Part shown: positions 21,234-28,245 of the stretch, one piece after another
Layout: each line of letters begins with the position of its first letter
Numbering within the stretch: the stretch's first letter is position 1
From: Rhodospirillales bacterium
GTDB lineage: Bacteria; Pseudomonadota; Alphaproteobacteria; BOG-932; Roseiterribacteraceae
Reading direction: 5' to 3'
DNA: 47,965 bases
Assembly: GCA_028291345.1 (NCBI GenBank)
Contig: JAQGIF010000195.1
Location: forward strand, 1 to 47,965
The notes under the pieces: model-generated
What the model was told of the DNA's origin: nothing
What the model saw: the letters and a program-made list of their open reading frames with translations, nothing else
The model's database searches: none
Made by a program: the position numbers and the translations under genes

Positions 21234-23951
21234 ATGAATCGCATAAATTTCTTATTGTTTTTAGTTGCCACCACGGCGGCCTGGTCTCCGGCAAGTTTCG
21301 CGCAAAGGCAAACGGCGGTCGGCCCAGGGACAATTCCCTTGAACGCGACGGGCGTACTTAACGGTGTCGATTTATCGGTTTCGGGGACGACGGGGACGTT
21401 GAGCGTCGGCGTGCCCGGCGGTCCGCAAATGGATATCTTCACCCACAACAATCCCCCTGTCGCTGGGCTCGTCGCGGTTTCCACTGCGGCGTCCAGCCAG
21501 GGCAACATTGTCTTCAACAGCAGTTCGACCGTCTATGGCGCGATCGGCGTCACTCAGCCGGGAGGGCCGTTTCTTCTCAACATCACCGGCGGCAATCCGG
21601 GAACGGCGGTAAATTTCATGGGCCCGGTCTATGCGACCACTCTGGGAGTCTCGGGAACCGGCGCGGTGAATTTCAATAGCGGCTCGACGAAGGTAACGGC
21701 CACGAATTTCGCCGCCGACGGCACGATCGGTCTTGCCCCCAATTCGATCGTCATCGGTGCTCTGACGACCACTGCAGGGGCAAATACCGGCACGTTGGCG
21801 CTAGGCGGCGGGAGTGTGCTGAACGGGGCGGTGGGCGGCGCGGTCGGGCTCAGGTCGATCAATGTCGTCGGGGGAAGCAACGCCGCAGGGGTTACCGCGA
21901 CGATCACCGGCGCGGTCGATGCCTTCGCATTTTCTCTCGGGACCAACACGTTGAATATCGGCGGCGCTCTGACGATCGCCAATCTTGGGGCGAGCGGAGT
22001 GATCAATACTGTGCTGGCCAGCCCCACGGTCTTTGGCAATATCAGGCCCGTCGGCGCGACCAATCTTGGGCCGGTGCTCGGGATCAACGTGACCGTCCCG
22101 ACGACCGCCTTCATCCCGGTCGGAACCCAATTCAACATCATTCAGACCCAGGCTGGAACGCTGCAAAGCGGCACGAACGGCAGCGTCGTAACGGTGACGA
22201 TAAAAGACCCCACCAATCCGCTCTACACTTTCGCCGCCGTCCCGGTCGCCGGCACCGTCGCCGGTCTAGTGACGATCCGAACAACCGGCATTCCGTTGAT
22301 GGCGGCGGTAACGCCGCCTATCGGAGTTGTTCTGCCGCCCACGGCGCCGGTTGCGGCCGTGGTCGCACCAGTTCTGCTGGCCATCGCTCCGACCGCGCCC
22401 GCGCCTGGCGCAACCCCGACGGCGCCGGCCGCGGCTCCGCCCTCCGACCTCGTCGCCACGGTTTTGCCGGCGATCAATTCCTTGGCGACGCCCGGCGCGG
22501 TTGTCGACGCGGTTGTGCAGCTTGCTCCGTCAACTCCAGACCTCGTGGCGCCCCTCGTGACGTTTCAAGGAACGCGGGAGTTCGAGGAGCTTTGGATGTC
22601 ACGTCTGGACGATGTCATGTGTGGCGGGGTCGATCAGACCGACCGCGCCAACCCGTCCGAGGGAGATAGTGCCTATTGCCATGTGAATGTGCCCCGCAGC
22701 GGCTGGTGGGTGAAGGGCTTCGGATATTTCGGCAACCAGGATGATCGCGGGCAAGCACTCGGAGGCTATGACTCCAAGATTTATGGCGGGATGGTCGGCT
22801 ACGACATGCCTCTCGGGCTGGACACGCGCGCGGGCTTGGGCATCGGCTATGCGCGAAGCACGATCGATGGGGCGCAGTTCGATGCCAGGACCAGCTTCAA
22901 CACCTATCAAGCGACGGCCTATCTGATTCATGAGATCGGACCATGGTTCGTCACTGGCGACCTGTCGATCGGGCTGAGCGATTATTCCGGAACGCGGTCC
23001 ATCCTCTTTCCCGCGATCGATCGTACCGCGCACGCCGGGTATGATGGGCAGGATTACACGGCCTATATCGCCACCGGTTATCATTTTTATGCTGACGGAT
23101 TCACCGTCACCCCTCTGGCCTCGCTCCAATACACAAATGTTAACGCGGACGGCTACACGGAGACCGGCGCCGGCGATATCAATCTCAAGGTGCGGTCCCA
23201 GAATTACGATTTTCTCGAGTCCGGTCTGGGCGTGAAGGTGGCGCGCGACGTCCAATCCGATGATGGGACGTTCGTTCCGGAAATCCACTTCAAATGGCTG
23301 CATGCGCTCAGCAACCCGACGCTGAAAAACACAGCTTCGTTCGCTGTCACGGGTTCCCCGACTTTTACGACGCCTGGACTGAAGACCGCTAACGACACCC
23401 TCGACCTTGGCGTGGGCGTAACGCTGCTTTCCAACGGGAAAAGATGGTCGGTTGAAACCGCCTACGATTATGAATGGAGAAGTGACGAATACTCCGCTCA
23501 TCAGGGAATGGTGAAGTTCACTTACCGGTTCGGCGGTGACGCCACGGATGTTTGCGACTGCGCGGCGCCAATCCAGGTTCCGGTTGTCGCGGCCACGCCG
23601 TCGGTTCCGAAGACCTATCTGGTGTTTTTCGACTTCAACAAGTCGGACCTGACGACGCAAGCTATCACTATTGTCGGCCAGGCGGCGACGAACGCGGGTC
23701 CAGCCAAGGTCACCCAGCTCGAAGTGACTGGACATACCGATACGGTTGGCTCCGATGGCTATAATATGCGCCTGTCCCGCCGCCGCGCGGAATCAGTCGC
23801 AGCCGAGTTGGAGAAGGATGGCATCCCCGCCAGCGAAATCGCGATCTTCGCCAAGGGTAAGCGCGACCTTTTGGTTCCGACCGCTGATGGCGTGAAGGAG
23901 CCACAAAACCGGCGCGTCCAGATATCCTACTCGGGGGAGCCGTCTGCTTAG
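21234..23951 (+). CDS. Autotransporter beta-barrel protein with C-terminal OmpA peptidoglycan-binding domain
   Basis: A 905-residue outer-membrane protein. Residues 1-23 form a Sec signal peptide ending AASFA-type before QRQ. Residues about 24-350 are a Gly/Asn/Thr/Val-rich passenger with beta-helix-like periodicity. Residues about 354-406 form a Pro/Ala-rich linker. A type Va autotransporter barrel spans about 480-766: SGWWVKGFGYFGNQDD, GGYDSKIYGGMVGYDM, YTAYIATGYHF, final strand MVKFTYRF. A VCDC pair (773-776) follows, then an OmpA-like domain (about 794-900) with VFFDFNKSDLT, GHTDTVGSDGYNMRLSRRRA (D836 and R851 as likely meso-diaminopimelate contacts) and NRRVQISY. In normal autotransporters the barrel is the last domain, so this order is unusual. 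The likely topology is a surface passenger, an outer-membrane barrel and a periplasmic cell-wall anchor. Confidence 0.85.
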   Translation: MNRINFLLFLVATTAAWSPASFAQRQTAVGPGTIPLNATGVLNGVDLSVSGTTGTLSVGVPGGPQMDIFTHNNPPVAGLVAVSTAASSQGNIVFNSSSTVYGAIGVTQPGGPFLLNITGGNPGTAVNFMGPVYATTLGVSGTGAVNFNSGSTKVTATNFAADGTIGLAPNSIVIGALTTTAGANTGTLALGGGSVLNGAVGGAVGLRSINVVGGSNAAGVTATITGAVDAFAFSLGTNTLNIGGALTIANLGASGVINTVLASPTVFGNIRPVGATNLGPVLGINVTVPTTAFIPVGTQFNIIQTQAGTLQSGTNGSVVTVTIKDPTNPLYTFAAVPVAGTVAGLVTIRTTGIPLMAAVTPPIGVVLPPTAPVAAVVAPVLLAIAPTAPAPGATPTAPAAAPPSDLVATVLPAINSLATPGAVVDAVVQLAPSTPDLVAPLVTFQGTREFEELWMSRLDDVMCGGVDQTDRANPSEGDSAYCHVNVPRSGWWVKGFGYFGNQDDRGQALGGYDSKIYGGMVGYDMPLGLDTRAGLGIGYARSTIDGAQFDARTSFNTYQATAYLIHEIGPWFVTGDLSIGLSDYSGTRSILFPAIDRTAHAGYDGQDYTAYIATGYHFYADGFTVTPLASLQYTNVNADGYTETGAGDINLKVRSQNYDFLESGLGVKVARDVQSDDGTFVPEIHFKWLHALSNPTLKNTASFAVTGSPTFTTPGLKTANDTLDLGVGVTLLSNGKRWSVETAYDYEWRSDEYSAHQGMVKFTYRFGGDATDVCDCAAPIQVPVVAATPSVPKTYLVFFDFNKSDLTTQAITIVGQAATNAGPAKVTQLEVTGHTDTVGSDGYNMRLSRRRAESVAAELEKDGIPASEIAIFAKGKRDLLVPTADGVKEPQNRRVQISYSGEPSA

Positions 23952-23973: not shown

Positions 23974-24006
23974 GATACGCCCGCAGGTTCAACCTGCGGG
24001 CGTATC
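23974..24006 (+). terminator. Strong rho-independent terminator
   Basis: A perfect 16-bp stem: GATACGCCCGCAGGTT (23974-23989) pairs with AACCTGCGGGCGTATC (23991-24006), followed by TTTTAATAA. In practice the loop opens to a few bases. It lies 23 bases after the stop of the autotransporter-OmpA gene and surely ends that transcript. Confidence 0.92.
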
Positions 24007-24057
24007 TTTTAATAAGCGCGGCCATAGTATGTCCGCTCGGCCTGTTCGAATTGGGTC

Positions 24058-24388: not shown

Positions 24389-24703
24389 ATGAGTGTTCCC
24401 GCGAATTCCAATACAGATCCTGCCCTACCACCCCACGAAGCGCTTGACGCCCTGCGCCGTAAGCTGGGCTTCCGCGCATGGCATCGGGGTACGCGTGAAG
24501 CAGATTTTCTGATCGGCAGTTTTGCCGACCGTCATCTCAAGGAGTTCGATGAGGTCGGGCTGCGGGCGTTCGAGCGGCTGATGAAAGAAAACGACCCCGA
24601 CATCTATGAATGGATGACCGGCCGCACGCCGGTGCCGCCGGAACACGATAATCCGGTCACTGTGTTGCTTCGCCAATTCCGCCTGCCTATGGCATCATCG
24701 TGA
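24389..24703 (+). CDS. sdhE: Succinate dehydrogenase assembly factor 2 (SdhE, FAD assembly)
   Basis: A 104-residue protein of the SdhE/YgfY (Sdh5) family. The conserved RGxxE motif is RGTRE at residues 33-37, followed by ADFLIGSFADRHL and the helix LRAFERLMKENDPDIYEWMTG, matching the family's D-x-D-L-Y-x-W plan. It promotes covalent attachment of FAD to the SdhA subunit of succinate dehydrogenase. The succinate dehydrogenase genes are not in the window. Its TGA stop overlaps the GTG start of mfd in a GTGA arrangement, a translational coupling seen in many alphaproteobacteria. Confidence 0.93.
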   Translation: MSVPANSNTDPALPPHEALDALRRKLGFRAWHRGTREADFLIGSFADRHLKEFDEVGLRAFERLMKENDPDIYEWMTGRTPVPPEHDNPVTVLLRQFRLPMASS

Positions 24704-27700
24704 GTACATTACCGAAAATAGGCCATTCAAAGCCGCCCACAGGTGGCTCGGCCAAGCCCGACCTGGCGAAATTTGGGCTGCCCGCGTTCGATTTCGCGCC
24801 TGGCCGCAAACTGACCCTGGCAGGCGCGCCCGAGGGGCATGACGCGCGATTGCTGGTGGAGCTGATCGCGCGGGAACAGCGCGACCTGCTCCATATCGCG
24901 TCGGACGACGGGCGCATGGCGCGGCTTTCCGACCTGATCGCCTTCTATGATCAGGCACTTGAGATCGTCACATTCCCGGCCTGGGATTGCCTGCCCTATG
25001 ACAGGGTCTCGCCCAATGTCGAGATCGTCGGGCAGCGTATCGCGACGCTTGCCAAGCTGCTGGCCCCGGCAAAAAAGCCGCGCCTGATTATCGCCACCGT
25101 CAACGCGGCCGCCCAGCGTGTGCCGCCGCGCGAGATGGTGCGCAACGCCGCATTCTCGGTGGCCGTCGGCGACCAGGTCGATATTGCGATATTGCAGCTG
25201 TTCTTTGCCGAGAACGGCTATAACCGTGCCGAAACCGTACGCGAGGCCGGCGAATATGCTGTGCGCGGCGGTATCGTCGACTTATTTCCCCCGGGCTTCG
25301 AGGAGCCGGTGCGGCTCGATATGTTCGGCGACGAGTTGGAGAAGATACGCAATTTCGACCCGATCTCCCAGCGCACAACCGGGGAGCGGGATCAGCTGTC
25401 GCTGCAGTCAATGGTCGAGTTCACTTTGGACGAGCCGTCGATCGCGCGCTTCCGCGCCGGCTATCGCGAATTGTTCGGTGTCGTCACCAACGACCCGCTC
25501 TATGAGGCGGTCAGCGCCGGACGGCGCTATGCCGGGATGGAGCATTGGCTGCCGCTGATGCATGAGCGGATCGAGACGATCTTCGATTATGCGCCTAAGG
25601 CGGCTTTGTCGCTCGATCCGCAGGGCGACGAGGCGTTCGATGCGCGCTTCGCCCAGATCGCCGATTTCTATCAGGCGCGGCTCGACCTGCAGAAGACCGA
25701 GGCGCGAGCCAATGGGGCGGTTTATAAACCGCTGCCGCCCGACCGGTTGTATCTGACCCGCGACGAGATCGACGGACAGTTCGCTGGCCGGTCGATGATA
25801 CGGCTTTCGGCTTTCGGCGCCATCGAGGGCGATCCGAACAGCATCGATGGCGGCGGTAAGCGCGGCCGCGATTTTTCCGACGTGCGCTCGACCCAGGCCG
25901 CCGAACTTTACGACGTCATCCGCGAATATCTCGATCGTTACCGCCATGACGGGCGGCGGGTTCTGATTGCCGCGTACAGTCAAGGCTCGCGCACGCGCCT
26001 TATGGCGGTGCTGGCCGAGCGCGGTATCAACCGGCTGGTACCGGTCGATGGCTGGGGCGATGTCCAGAAACTGCCCAAGAACGAAACCGGCGTCGTGGTC
26101 CTGGCGCTGGAGACCGGATTCACCACCCGGGATGTCTGCTTCGTGTCGGAGCAGGACATATTGGGCGACCGGCTAGCCCGCCCGCAGAAGAAGCGTCGGC
26201 GCAGCGACAAGTTCACCATCGATGTCGGCGAGCTGACTGACGGCGATCTTGTGGTCCATGCCGAGCATGGAATCGGCCGCTATGCTGGGCTGGAGACGCT
26301 GCAGGTGTCGGGCGCGGCGCATGATTGCGTGCGGATCGTCTATGCCGGCGACGACAAACTGTATGTGCCGGTCGAGAATATCGACGTGCTATCGCGCTAC
26401 GGCTCCGAGGAGACCACCGCGACGCTCGATAGGCTGGGCGGCGTCGCCTGGCAGGCCCGCAAGGCCAAGGTCCAGAAACGGCTCAAGGACATGGCCGAGC
26501 AGTTGCTCAAGGTCGCGGCGCTCCGCCTGCTGCACTACACCGAGCCGCTGAGCCCGCCGACGGGGCTGTATGAGGAATTCGCCGCGCGGTTCCCGTATCC
26601 GGAGACCGAGGATCAGCTGCGGGCGATCGAGAATGTGATCGAGGATCTGGGGTCGGGCCGGCCGATGGACCGGCTGGTGTGCGGCGATGTCGGCTTCGGC
26701 AAGACCGAGGTCGCGTTGCGCGCGGCATTCGCGGTGGCGATGAGCGGGATGCAGGTGGCGGTGATCGTGCCGACCACCTTGCTGTGCCGCCAGCATTTCA
26801 AGAATTTCCAGAAGCGCTTCGCCGGGCTGCCGCTGCGGATCGAGCAGCTGTCGCGGCTGGTCACGGTGGCGGACGCCAAGACTATCAAAGAGGGCATAAC
26901 CGAGGGCAAGGTTGATATCGTCATCGGCACCCACGCGCTGCTGGGCAAGACGATTAAGTTCGCCCGGTTGGGCCTGCTGGTCGTCGATGAGGAGCAGCAT
27001 TTCGGCGTCAAGCAGAAGGAAAAGCTGAAGGAGCTTGGCGACGGGGTGCATGTGTTGACCCTGACCGCGACGCCGATCCCGCGCACACTGCAAATGGCGC
27101 TGGCTGGCGTGCGCGAGCTCAGCCTCATCACCACGCCACCGGTCGACCGGCTGGCGGTGCGGACGTTCGTGCTGCCGTATGACCCGGTGGTGATCCGCGA
27201 GGCTGTCCTGCGGGAGCAGTTCCGGGGCGGCCAGACCTTCTATGTTTGCCCGCGGCTGGAGGACCTGCCCAAGGTCGAGCAGCGGCTGCGGGAACTGGTG
27301 CCCGAAGTCAAGATGGTCATCGCCCATGGCCAGCTTGCGCCCGCCGATCTGGAGGCGCGGATCAGCGCGTTCTATGACGGCGAGTACGACATGCTGCTGG
27401 CGACGAACATCGTCGAATCCGGCCTGGATTTGCCGCGGGCCAATACGATGATCCTGCATCGTGCCGATATGTTCGGCCTGGCGCAGCTCTATCAGCTGCG
27501 CGGGCGCATCGGCCGGGCCAAGTTGCGCGGCTATTGCTACCTGACCCATGCGGCGGGGCAGATGCTGACCAAGCCGGCGCAGCAGCGGCTTGAACTGATC
27601 GAGACGTTGGACAGTCTGGGCGCCGGCTTTACCCTGGCGAGCCACGACCTCGATTTGCGCGGCGCCGGCAATCTGCTTGGCGAGGAACAATCCGGTCATA

Positions 27701-28245
27701 TTAAAGAGGTCGGTGTCGAGCTTTACCAGCAGATGTTGGAAGAGGCCGTCGCCGTCGCGAAGAGCGGCGTGTCGGACGAGGCGCTGCCGCCAGAGCAATG
27801 GACGCCGCAGATCAATCTGGGAATTCCGGTATTAATACCAGAGGCTTATGTCTCAGAGTTGAATGTTCGCCTGAACCTCTATCGCCGGTTGGCTGAGCTG
27901 CGGACGCGTGAGGAACTCGAGGCGTTCGGGGCGGAACTTATCGACCGGTTTGGGCCGTTGCCGCCGGAAGTCGAGAACCTGCTCGACACCGTTGTCATTA
28001 AACAGCTTTGCCGTTCTGCAGGGGTCGAAAAACTGGATGTCGGGTCCAAGGGCGCGATGATTTCGTTCCGCAATAACAGCTTCAACCATGTCGACCAGCT
28101 AATGGCCTGGGTGATGAAGCAGGCGGGCACGGTGAAGATCAGGCCGGACCAGAAACTGATCTATAGCCGCGCCTGGGAGCAACCGGACAAGCGCCTGAAG
28201 GGCGCGCGTGGGCTGATGGGGGAACTGGCGCTGCTGGCGGCGTGA
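24700..28245 (+). CDS. mfd: Transcription-repair coupling factor Mfd
   Basis: An 1181-residue Mfd, of typical full length. An N-terminal UvrB-homology module (residues about 20-350, [15 protein letters not shown] and [12 protein letters not shown]) binds UvrA. The RNA-polymerase-interacting domain lies near residues 505-590 ([21 protein letters not shown]). The RecG-like translocase follows, with Walker A [12 protein letters not shown] near residue 663 and DEEQHFG near 763. [35 protein letters not shown] lies in motifs V-VI (split here for description), and the C-terminal TRCF domain ends the protein. It removes RNA polymerase stalled at lesions and recruits UvrA for excision repair. The start is GTG at 24700 within the overlap with sdhE. 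Confidence 0.97.
   Translation: [1181 protein letters not shown]

Follow-up and report, generated by a model that had tools for sequence, protein, structure and literature searches.

A type Va autotransporter with a C-terminal OmpA domain, and a putative wall-anchor cassette shared by the outer-membrane barrels of an alphaproteobacterial bog lineage

Results

The window, that is, the whole 47,965-nucleotide stretch of DNA analysed here, carries on its plus strand an unbroken open reading frame (ORF, 21234–23951) for a 905-residue autotransporter with a C-terminal OmpA domain. The protein starts with a predicted signal peptide (residues 1–23; 21234–21302), whose cleavage site was judged by eye to fall between ASFA and Q. 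This is followed by a repetitive, beta-rich passenger (approximately residues 24–350; 21303–22283), in which a Pfam search of the 905-residue protein found no domain, and a Pro/Ala-rich stretch (approximately residues 355–410; 22296–22463) that joins the passenger to the beta-barrel (residues 480–766; 22671–23531). The barrel ends in MVKFTYRF and is linked, through about 29 periplasmic residues (23532–23618) of which the second half is common to other tails (see below), to an OmpA peptidoglycan-binding domain (residues 798–893; 23625–23912). Past the stop codon, an inverted repeat, gatacgcccgcaggtt/aacctgcgggcgtatc, followed by a T-run (23974–24011, plus strand) was read by eye as terminator-like. 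Upstream of the gene, Pfam assigns ORFs to the PAS_5 and GFA families, and a further ORF is recG-like as judged by eye. Downstream, an ORF of the Sdh5/SdhE family (PF03937 by Pfam; 24389–24703) is overlapped by an ORF at 24700–28245, presumably Mfd-like, which was also recognised by eye.

Both domains are matched by Pfam over their full length. Thus, PF03797 (Autotransporter) covers residues 491–745 with the whole profile (1–255 of 255, E = 4.8e-57) and PF00691 (OmpA) residues 798–893 (1–98 of 98, E = 7.6e-17), the latter scoring 61.9 bits against a family cut-off of 27.2. Furthermore, the last position of TIGR01414 (432 of 432) falls on residue 766, the phenylalanine of MVKFTYRF, and a six-barrel profile of relatives matches the NalP barrel (1uyn) up to that chain's last residue, as well as EstA. 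These matches bear out the claim of an earlier note on this DNA that a complete autotransporter is followed by a complete OmpA domain. Closure of the barrel rests on the profiles, because the AlphaFold alignment for residues 430–905 held one other barrel homologue only and the barrel was not modelled (pLDDT of about 30, with the OmpA part mostly at 70–90). A search of viral contigs for more autotransporter barrels returned no relatives.

In having a signal peptide, a passenger and a 12-strand PF03797 barrel in one chain, the protein resembles type Va autotransporters; it departs from them in that the barrel is not the last domain, 139 residues following F766. We treat it as a tailed variant of the type Va autotransporter and not as a plain member. 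Three other assignments were considered. First, the barrel is PF03797 by Pfam and not the 8-strand barrel of OmpA/OprF porins. Second, no LysM was matched by Pfam and the passenger precedes the barrel, which sets the protein apart from intimins and invasins (type Ve). Third, Pfam matched neither the YadA anchor nor the SLH domain of the Veillonella-type proteins. The earlier note had stressed that the C-terminal assembly signal of the barrel is internal here. F766 is indeed internal; however, this is less remarkable than was thought, because OmpA and OprF are themselves a barrel followed by an OmpA domain, and OmpA thus already breaks any strict rule that the beta-signal must be C-terminal.

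The Asp and Arg predicted to contact peptidoglycan, which the earlier note had also recognised, are D836 (codon at 23739–23741) and R851 (codon at 23784–23786). They stand 15 residues apart, the same spacing as in E. coli OmpA, where we take the contact residues to be D241 and R256. In OmpA, the Asp and Arg contact diaminopimelate. Both residues, with this spacing, are kept in all 74 tails inspected.

Comparison with homologues bears on how the tail arose. An orthologue (L129/L034) with the same layout, tail included, is present in a second genome of the genus (G001, PLTD01) and is 70% identical over 930 aligned positions, which rules out chance or an assembly chimera. A homologue from another family of the same class (L264) is 55.6% identical over residues 7–766, with passenger and barrel alike conserved, and in it the stop codon comes immediately after the terminal phenylalanine of the barrel; two more related autotransporters (L014 and L020) likewise end at the barrel terminus. 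Because the chain of a full-length homologue closes on this very phenylalanine, the 139-residue tail is read as a later addition, appended to an already complete autotransporter.

The tail is not confined to this protein. A search with residues 791–905 found tails of 69–88% identity on 34 ORFs of the window's own genome (G000), the window ORF included, plus three tail pieces at contig ends; the same search found 26 tails in G001. The tailed set of G000 comprises about 29 TonB-dependent receptors, the autotransporter, one OmpA, one PagL-type barrel and one BBP2 porin. Most tailed ORFs are receptors of 900–1100 residues (PF07715 and PF00593). By cross-matching the tail and Plug searches, about 29 of the 64 Plug domains in G000, nearly half, lie on tailed ORFs; more than half of its TonB receptors are without a tail, which we counted against the anchor function proposed below. 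Among the other barrels, tailed OmpA proteins (L190 and L200) have a PF13505/PF01389 barrel, and PagL-type (lipid A deacylase) barrels of PF09411 carry the same OmpA domain at their C-terminus (L192:1905–2822 and L203:1974–2876, both minus strand). In BBP2 porins (PF07642), the domain is instead N-terminal, between the signal peptide and the barrel (L201:874–3072 and L202:1633–3354; by similarity also L191:1–1464, minus strand, and L057:5860–7953). Going by the known topology of outer-membrane barrels, both ends of these barrels face the periplasm, so that every one of these placements puts the OmpA domain beside the wall.

This abundance sets the genus apart. PF00691 matches number 39 in G000, 33 in G001 and 14 in a third, 65% complete genome of the genus (G002), as opposed to 11 or fewer in each of 56 alphaproteobacterial genomes outside the genus, both sister-genus genomes included. 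Each of these two sister-genus genomes holds one receptor–OmpA fusion (L207 and L210). Spacing between barrel and domain is near constant: the linker is 27–34 residues long in 52 of the 54 proteins measured, with 31 linkers of exactly 29 residues; the remaining two, of 47 residues, probably reflect a mis-set barrel end. For the tailed receptor L043, AlphaFold modelled a plug and a large barrel (mean pLDDT 70.2, pTM 0.74) whose last strand, 754–764, is followed by the linker; the OmpA part was weak. Tailed TonB receptors also occur in tandem, three at L117:2550–11711 and five at L130:1–16012, with a broken extra tail at L130:3296–3601 inside the latter array.

Tails come and go among the receptors. 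When 22 receptors with a tail and 24 without one were placed on a tree, 11 tail changes were counted, at least 10 of which are forced by well-supported branches; on this tree, gain or loss of the tail occurred no fewer than 10 times. For example, the orthologues L236 (G000, untailed) and L142 (G001, tailed) share 80% identity over 785 residues; L236 ends in GFTLDLKY at the stop codon, whereas L142 runs through GFTLDYKF into the linker and the OmpA domain. Another untailed receptor (L251:227–2647, minus strand) ends in KYRFGPGLDSGL at the stop codon and looks as though it had been truncated a little way into the linker; no tail remnant was seen in the 226 bases inspected beyond it.

Tails and barrels have different histories. 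In the tail-DNA tree (18 tails from G000, 14 from G001 and 8 from G002), tails form genome-specific groups with moderate support, whereas in the receptor-barrel tree the genomes interleave as orthologues. Label changes for G000, G001 and G002 were 10, 12 and 3 on the tail tree versus 24.0, 21.2 and 9.6 in shuffles, and 19, 17 and 8 on the barrel tree versus 18.3, 15.9 and 7.6. In 10 of 12 reciprocal-best pairs, 7–19 of 24 paralogous tails are nearer in DNA than the tail of the orthologue; for the window protein, the count is 18 of 24. Sampled paralogues have median dN 0.08, dS 0.82 and 89% identity in the tail, and dN 0.84, dS 1.60 and 31% identity in the barrel. The median dS of paralogous tails within a genome (0.69–1.15) is lower than the dS of orthologous barrels of the two species (mostly 1.07–1.46). 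The tail is under strong purifying selection, with a dN/dS of about 0.1. Tailed ORFs begin to resemble one another about 20 codons ahead of FFDF, and the resemblance lasts up to the stop codon and no further.

Because the tails cluster by genome whereas the barrels pair as orthologues, the pattern is best explained by concerted evolution, with gene conversion acting on the tail alone. A single receptor–OmpA fusion followed by plain duplication was ruled out, given the disagreement between the two trees and the repeated gains and losses. Tails of BBP2 porins group as orthologous pairs and show no homogenisation with those of the receptors. The window tail lies outside the homogenised G000 group, yet inside a receptor-type tail clade (support 97/92) from which the OmpA, PagL and BBP2 tails are excluded. 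From this position, a receptor gene is the most likely source of the tail on the autotransporter.

Discussion

The genome-wide cassette is, in our view, the real finding of this study, the lone window protein being of modest interest. We consider it probable that the latter is a type Va autotransporter with an added periplasmic wall anchor, and that the anchor is a cassette placed on many barrels and homogenised on the receptors. The cassette would consist of half of the Pro-rich linker plus the OmpA domain up to the stop codon, and would probably have originated from the lineage's own OmpA-type proteins. It would have been placed on TonB-dependent receptors, the autotransporter and PagL, and N-terminally on BBP2 porins, in every case at a periplasmic end of the barrel, with the receptor copies kept alike inside each genome by gene conversion on the tail only. 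A non-covalent wall anchor is the most likely function of the tail, and we infer that each tail binds the diaminopimelate of peptidoglycan through its Asp and Arg. Thus, the transporters and adhesins of the outer membrane would themselves fasten it to the wall, and the anchor would secure the passenger when it is pulled on and the receptors against the pull of TonB. The topology predicted in the earlier note (surface passenger, barrel and periplasmic wall-binding domain) stands as a prediction. More broadly, we lean towards the view that a large share of the barrels in this bog lineage has been made into direct membrane–wall anchors via one uniform OmpA cassette, in place of a dedicated abundant lipoprotein.

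Reports on other systems give some idea of what such an anchor might do. Removal of the LysM domain of YeeJ lowers its surface amount (PMC5595812), and in simulations, pulling out the AtaA barrel takes twice the force when the N-terminal domain of TpgA is present (PMC13082670). However, the mobility of E. coli OmpA is not raised by removing its OmpA domain (PMC3637615), so that a tether need not show the physical effect expected of it.

An alternative, which we regard as unlikely, is that the tail is a docking or assembly tag that recruits a shared periplasmic partner (e.g. Tol–Pal, TonB/ExbBD or BAM-associated factors), with wall binding secondary or lost. Caulobacter Pal, an OmpA-domain protein, occurs in the BAM complex (PMC2797634), and both the homogenisation of the tail and a conservation that reaches far past the two contact residues would suit a common partner. 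Nevertheless, the Asp and Arg persist in every tail inspected, and gene conversion by itself gives similarity within a genome, with no partner required. Less likely still, the tail could be a by-product of recombination, namely a selfish or neutral block of homology spread by gene conversion with little function, perhaps in shuffling barrels. Concerted evolution confined to the tail, its patchy presence and an orthologue that lacks it would be expected on such an account, which sits poorly with the purifying selection, the constant linker length, the never-broken contact residues and the N-terminal position in BBP2 porins that keeps the OmpA domain periplasmic. Finally, although several copies lie at contig ends, misjoining of conserved OmpA sequence to barrel genes during assembly or binning has a negligible chance of being the explanation and is refuted in practice, the same fusions being present in the independent assemblies G001, G002 and JABDBE and, for a receptor–OmpA fusion, inside a 4.2 Mb contig of a 3-contig sister-genus genome (G003).

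The proposed anchor has several relatives in logic. OmpA and OprF, a likely source of the cassette, share with the window protein an internal last strand, a periplasmic linker and the same wall-binding domain; they differ in having an 8-strand barrel without a passenger, whereas here the domain sits on autotransporter, receptor, PagL and porin barrels. In the Veillonella trimeric autotransporters Vpar_0041, Vpar_0100 and Vpar_1664, the barrel is followed by an SLH domain at the C-terminus (PMC5491611); they, too, combine a barrel and a periplasmic wall-binding domain in one chain. That system, however, is of type Vc, uses SLH rather than OmpA and has been reported from Negativicutes only; OmpM, an SLH porin there, is a separate family. 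Intimin and the LysM-containing YeeJ (PMC5595812) are likewise surface adhesins tied to peptidoglycan, but their LysM is N-terminal, the order of barrel and passenger is reversed and there is no homology. In the AtaA–TpgA pair of Acinetobacter (PMC13082670), an autotransporter barrel is coupled to a wall-binding periplasmic protein; there, the partner is a separate protein and the barrel trimeric. RmpM of Neisseria/Bordetella (PMC8610307) uses its OmpA-like domain to connect porins, which are separate outer-membrane proteins, with the wall, yet this is one protein acting in trans, as opposed to a domain fused to each barrel.

With the Veillonella proteins as one precedent, the domain order is less unusual than the earlier note had held. 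A second precedent, which refutes the order as unique, lies closer: in another alphaproteobacterial family (f13), which looks like the sphingomonads, 8 of 150 genomes have chains with PF03797 followed by PF00691 (L262 and L265–L272, open frames of 593–2066 residues). The host itself is not a sphingomonad and falls in a genus of bog metagenome-assembled genomes labelled Rhodospirillales/Alphaproteobacteria. Because the f13 proteins mostly have long polyproline linkers and a different type of OmpA domain, mostly ending in GPGSGN/M, their fusions are of separate origin. They also differ in being mostly one per genome, and no receptor–OmpA fusions were seen in f13. In line with the sphingomonad-like look of f13, the OmpA domain of one of its proteins shares 64% identity with a Novosphingobium plasmid copy. 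Among 385 genomes of the class and a second set of 398 from the phylum, which overlaps the first, receptor–OmpA chains were found in one family only (f1), in a scan that scored the two best candidates per genome and may miss rare cases. In the open-licence literature, we found no report of receptor–OmpA or type Va–OmpA fusions.

Two broader questions are touched on here, namely by what means the outer membrane is linked to the wall where Braun's lipoprotein is absent, and whether barrels that serve in adhesion or are pulled by TonB require a wall anchor. The lineage offers natural pairs of the same barrel with and without the tail (L142/L236 and the window protein/L264), on which the effect of such an anchor is directly testable. 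The tail is also a clear case of a single domain that has spread across unrelated membrane proteins and undergoes concerted evolution.

One contig, JABDBE010000044.1 (L055 and L057), is labelled 'Acidobacteria bacterium' and carries receptor–OmpA and OmpA–BBP2 genes of this alphaproteobacterial lineage; the label is probably a binning error.
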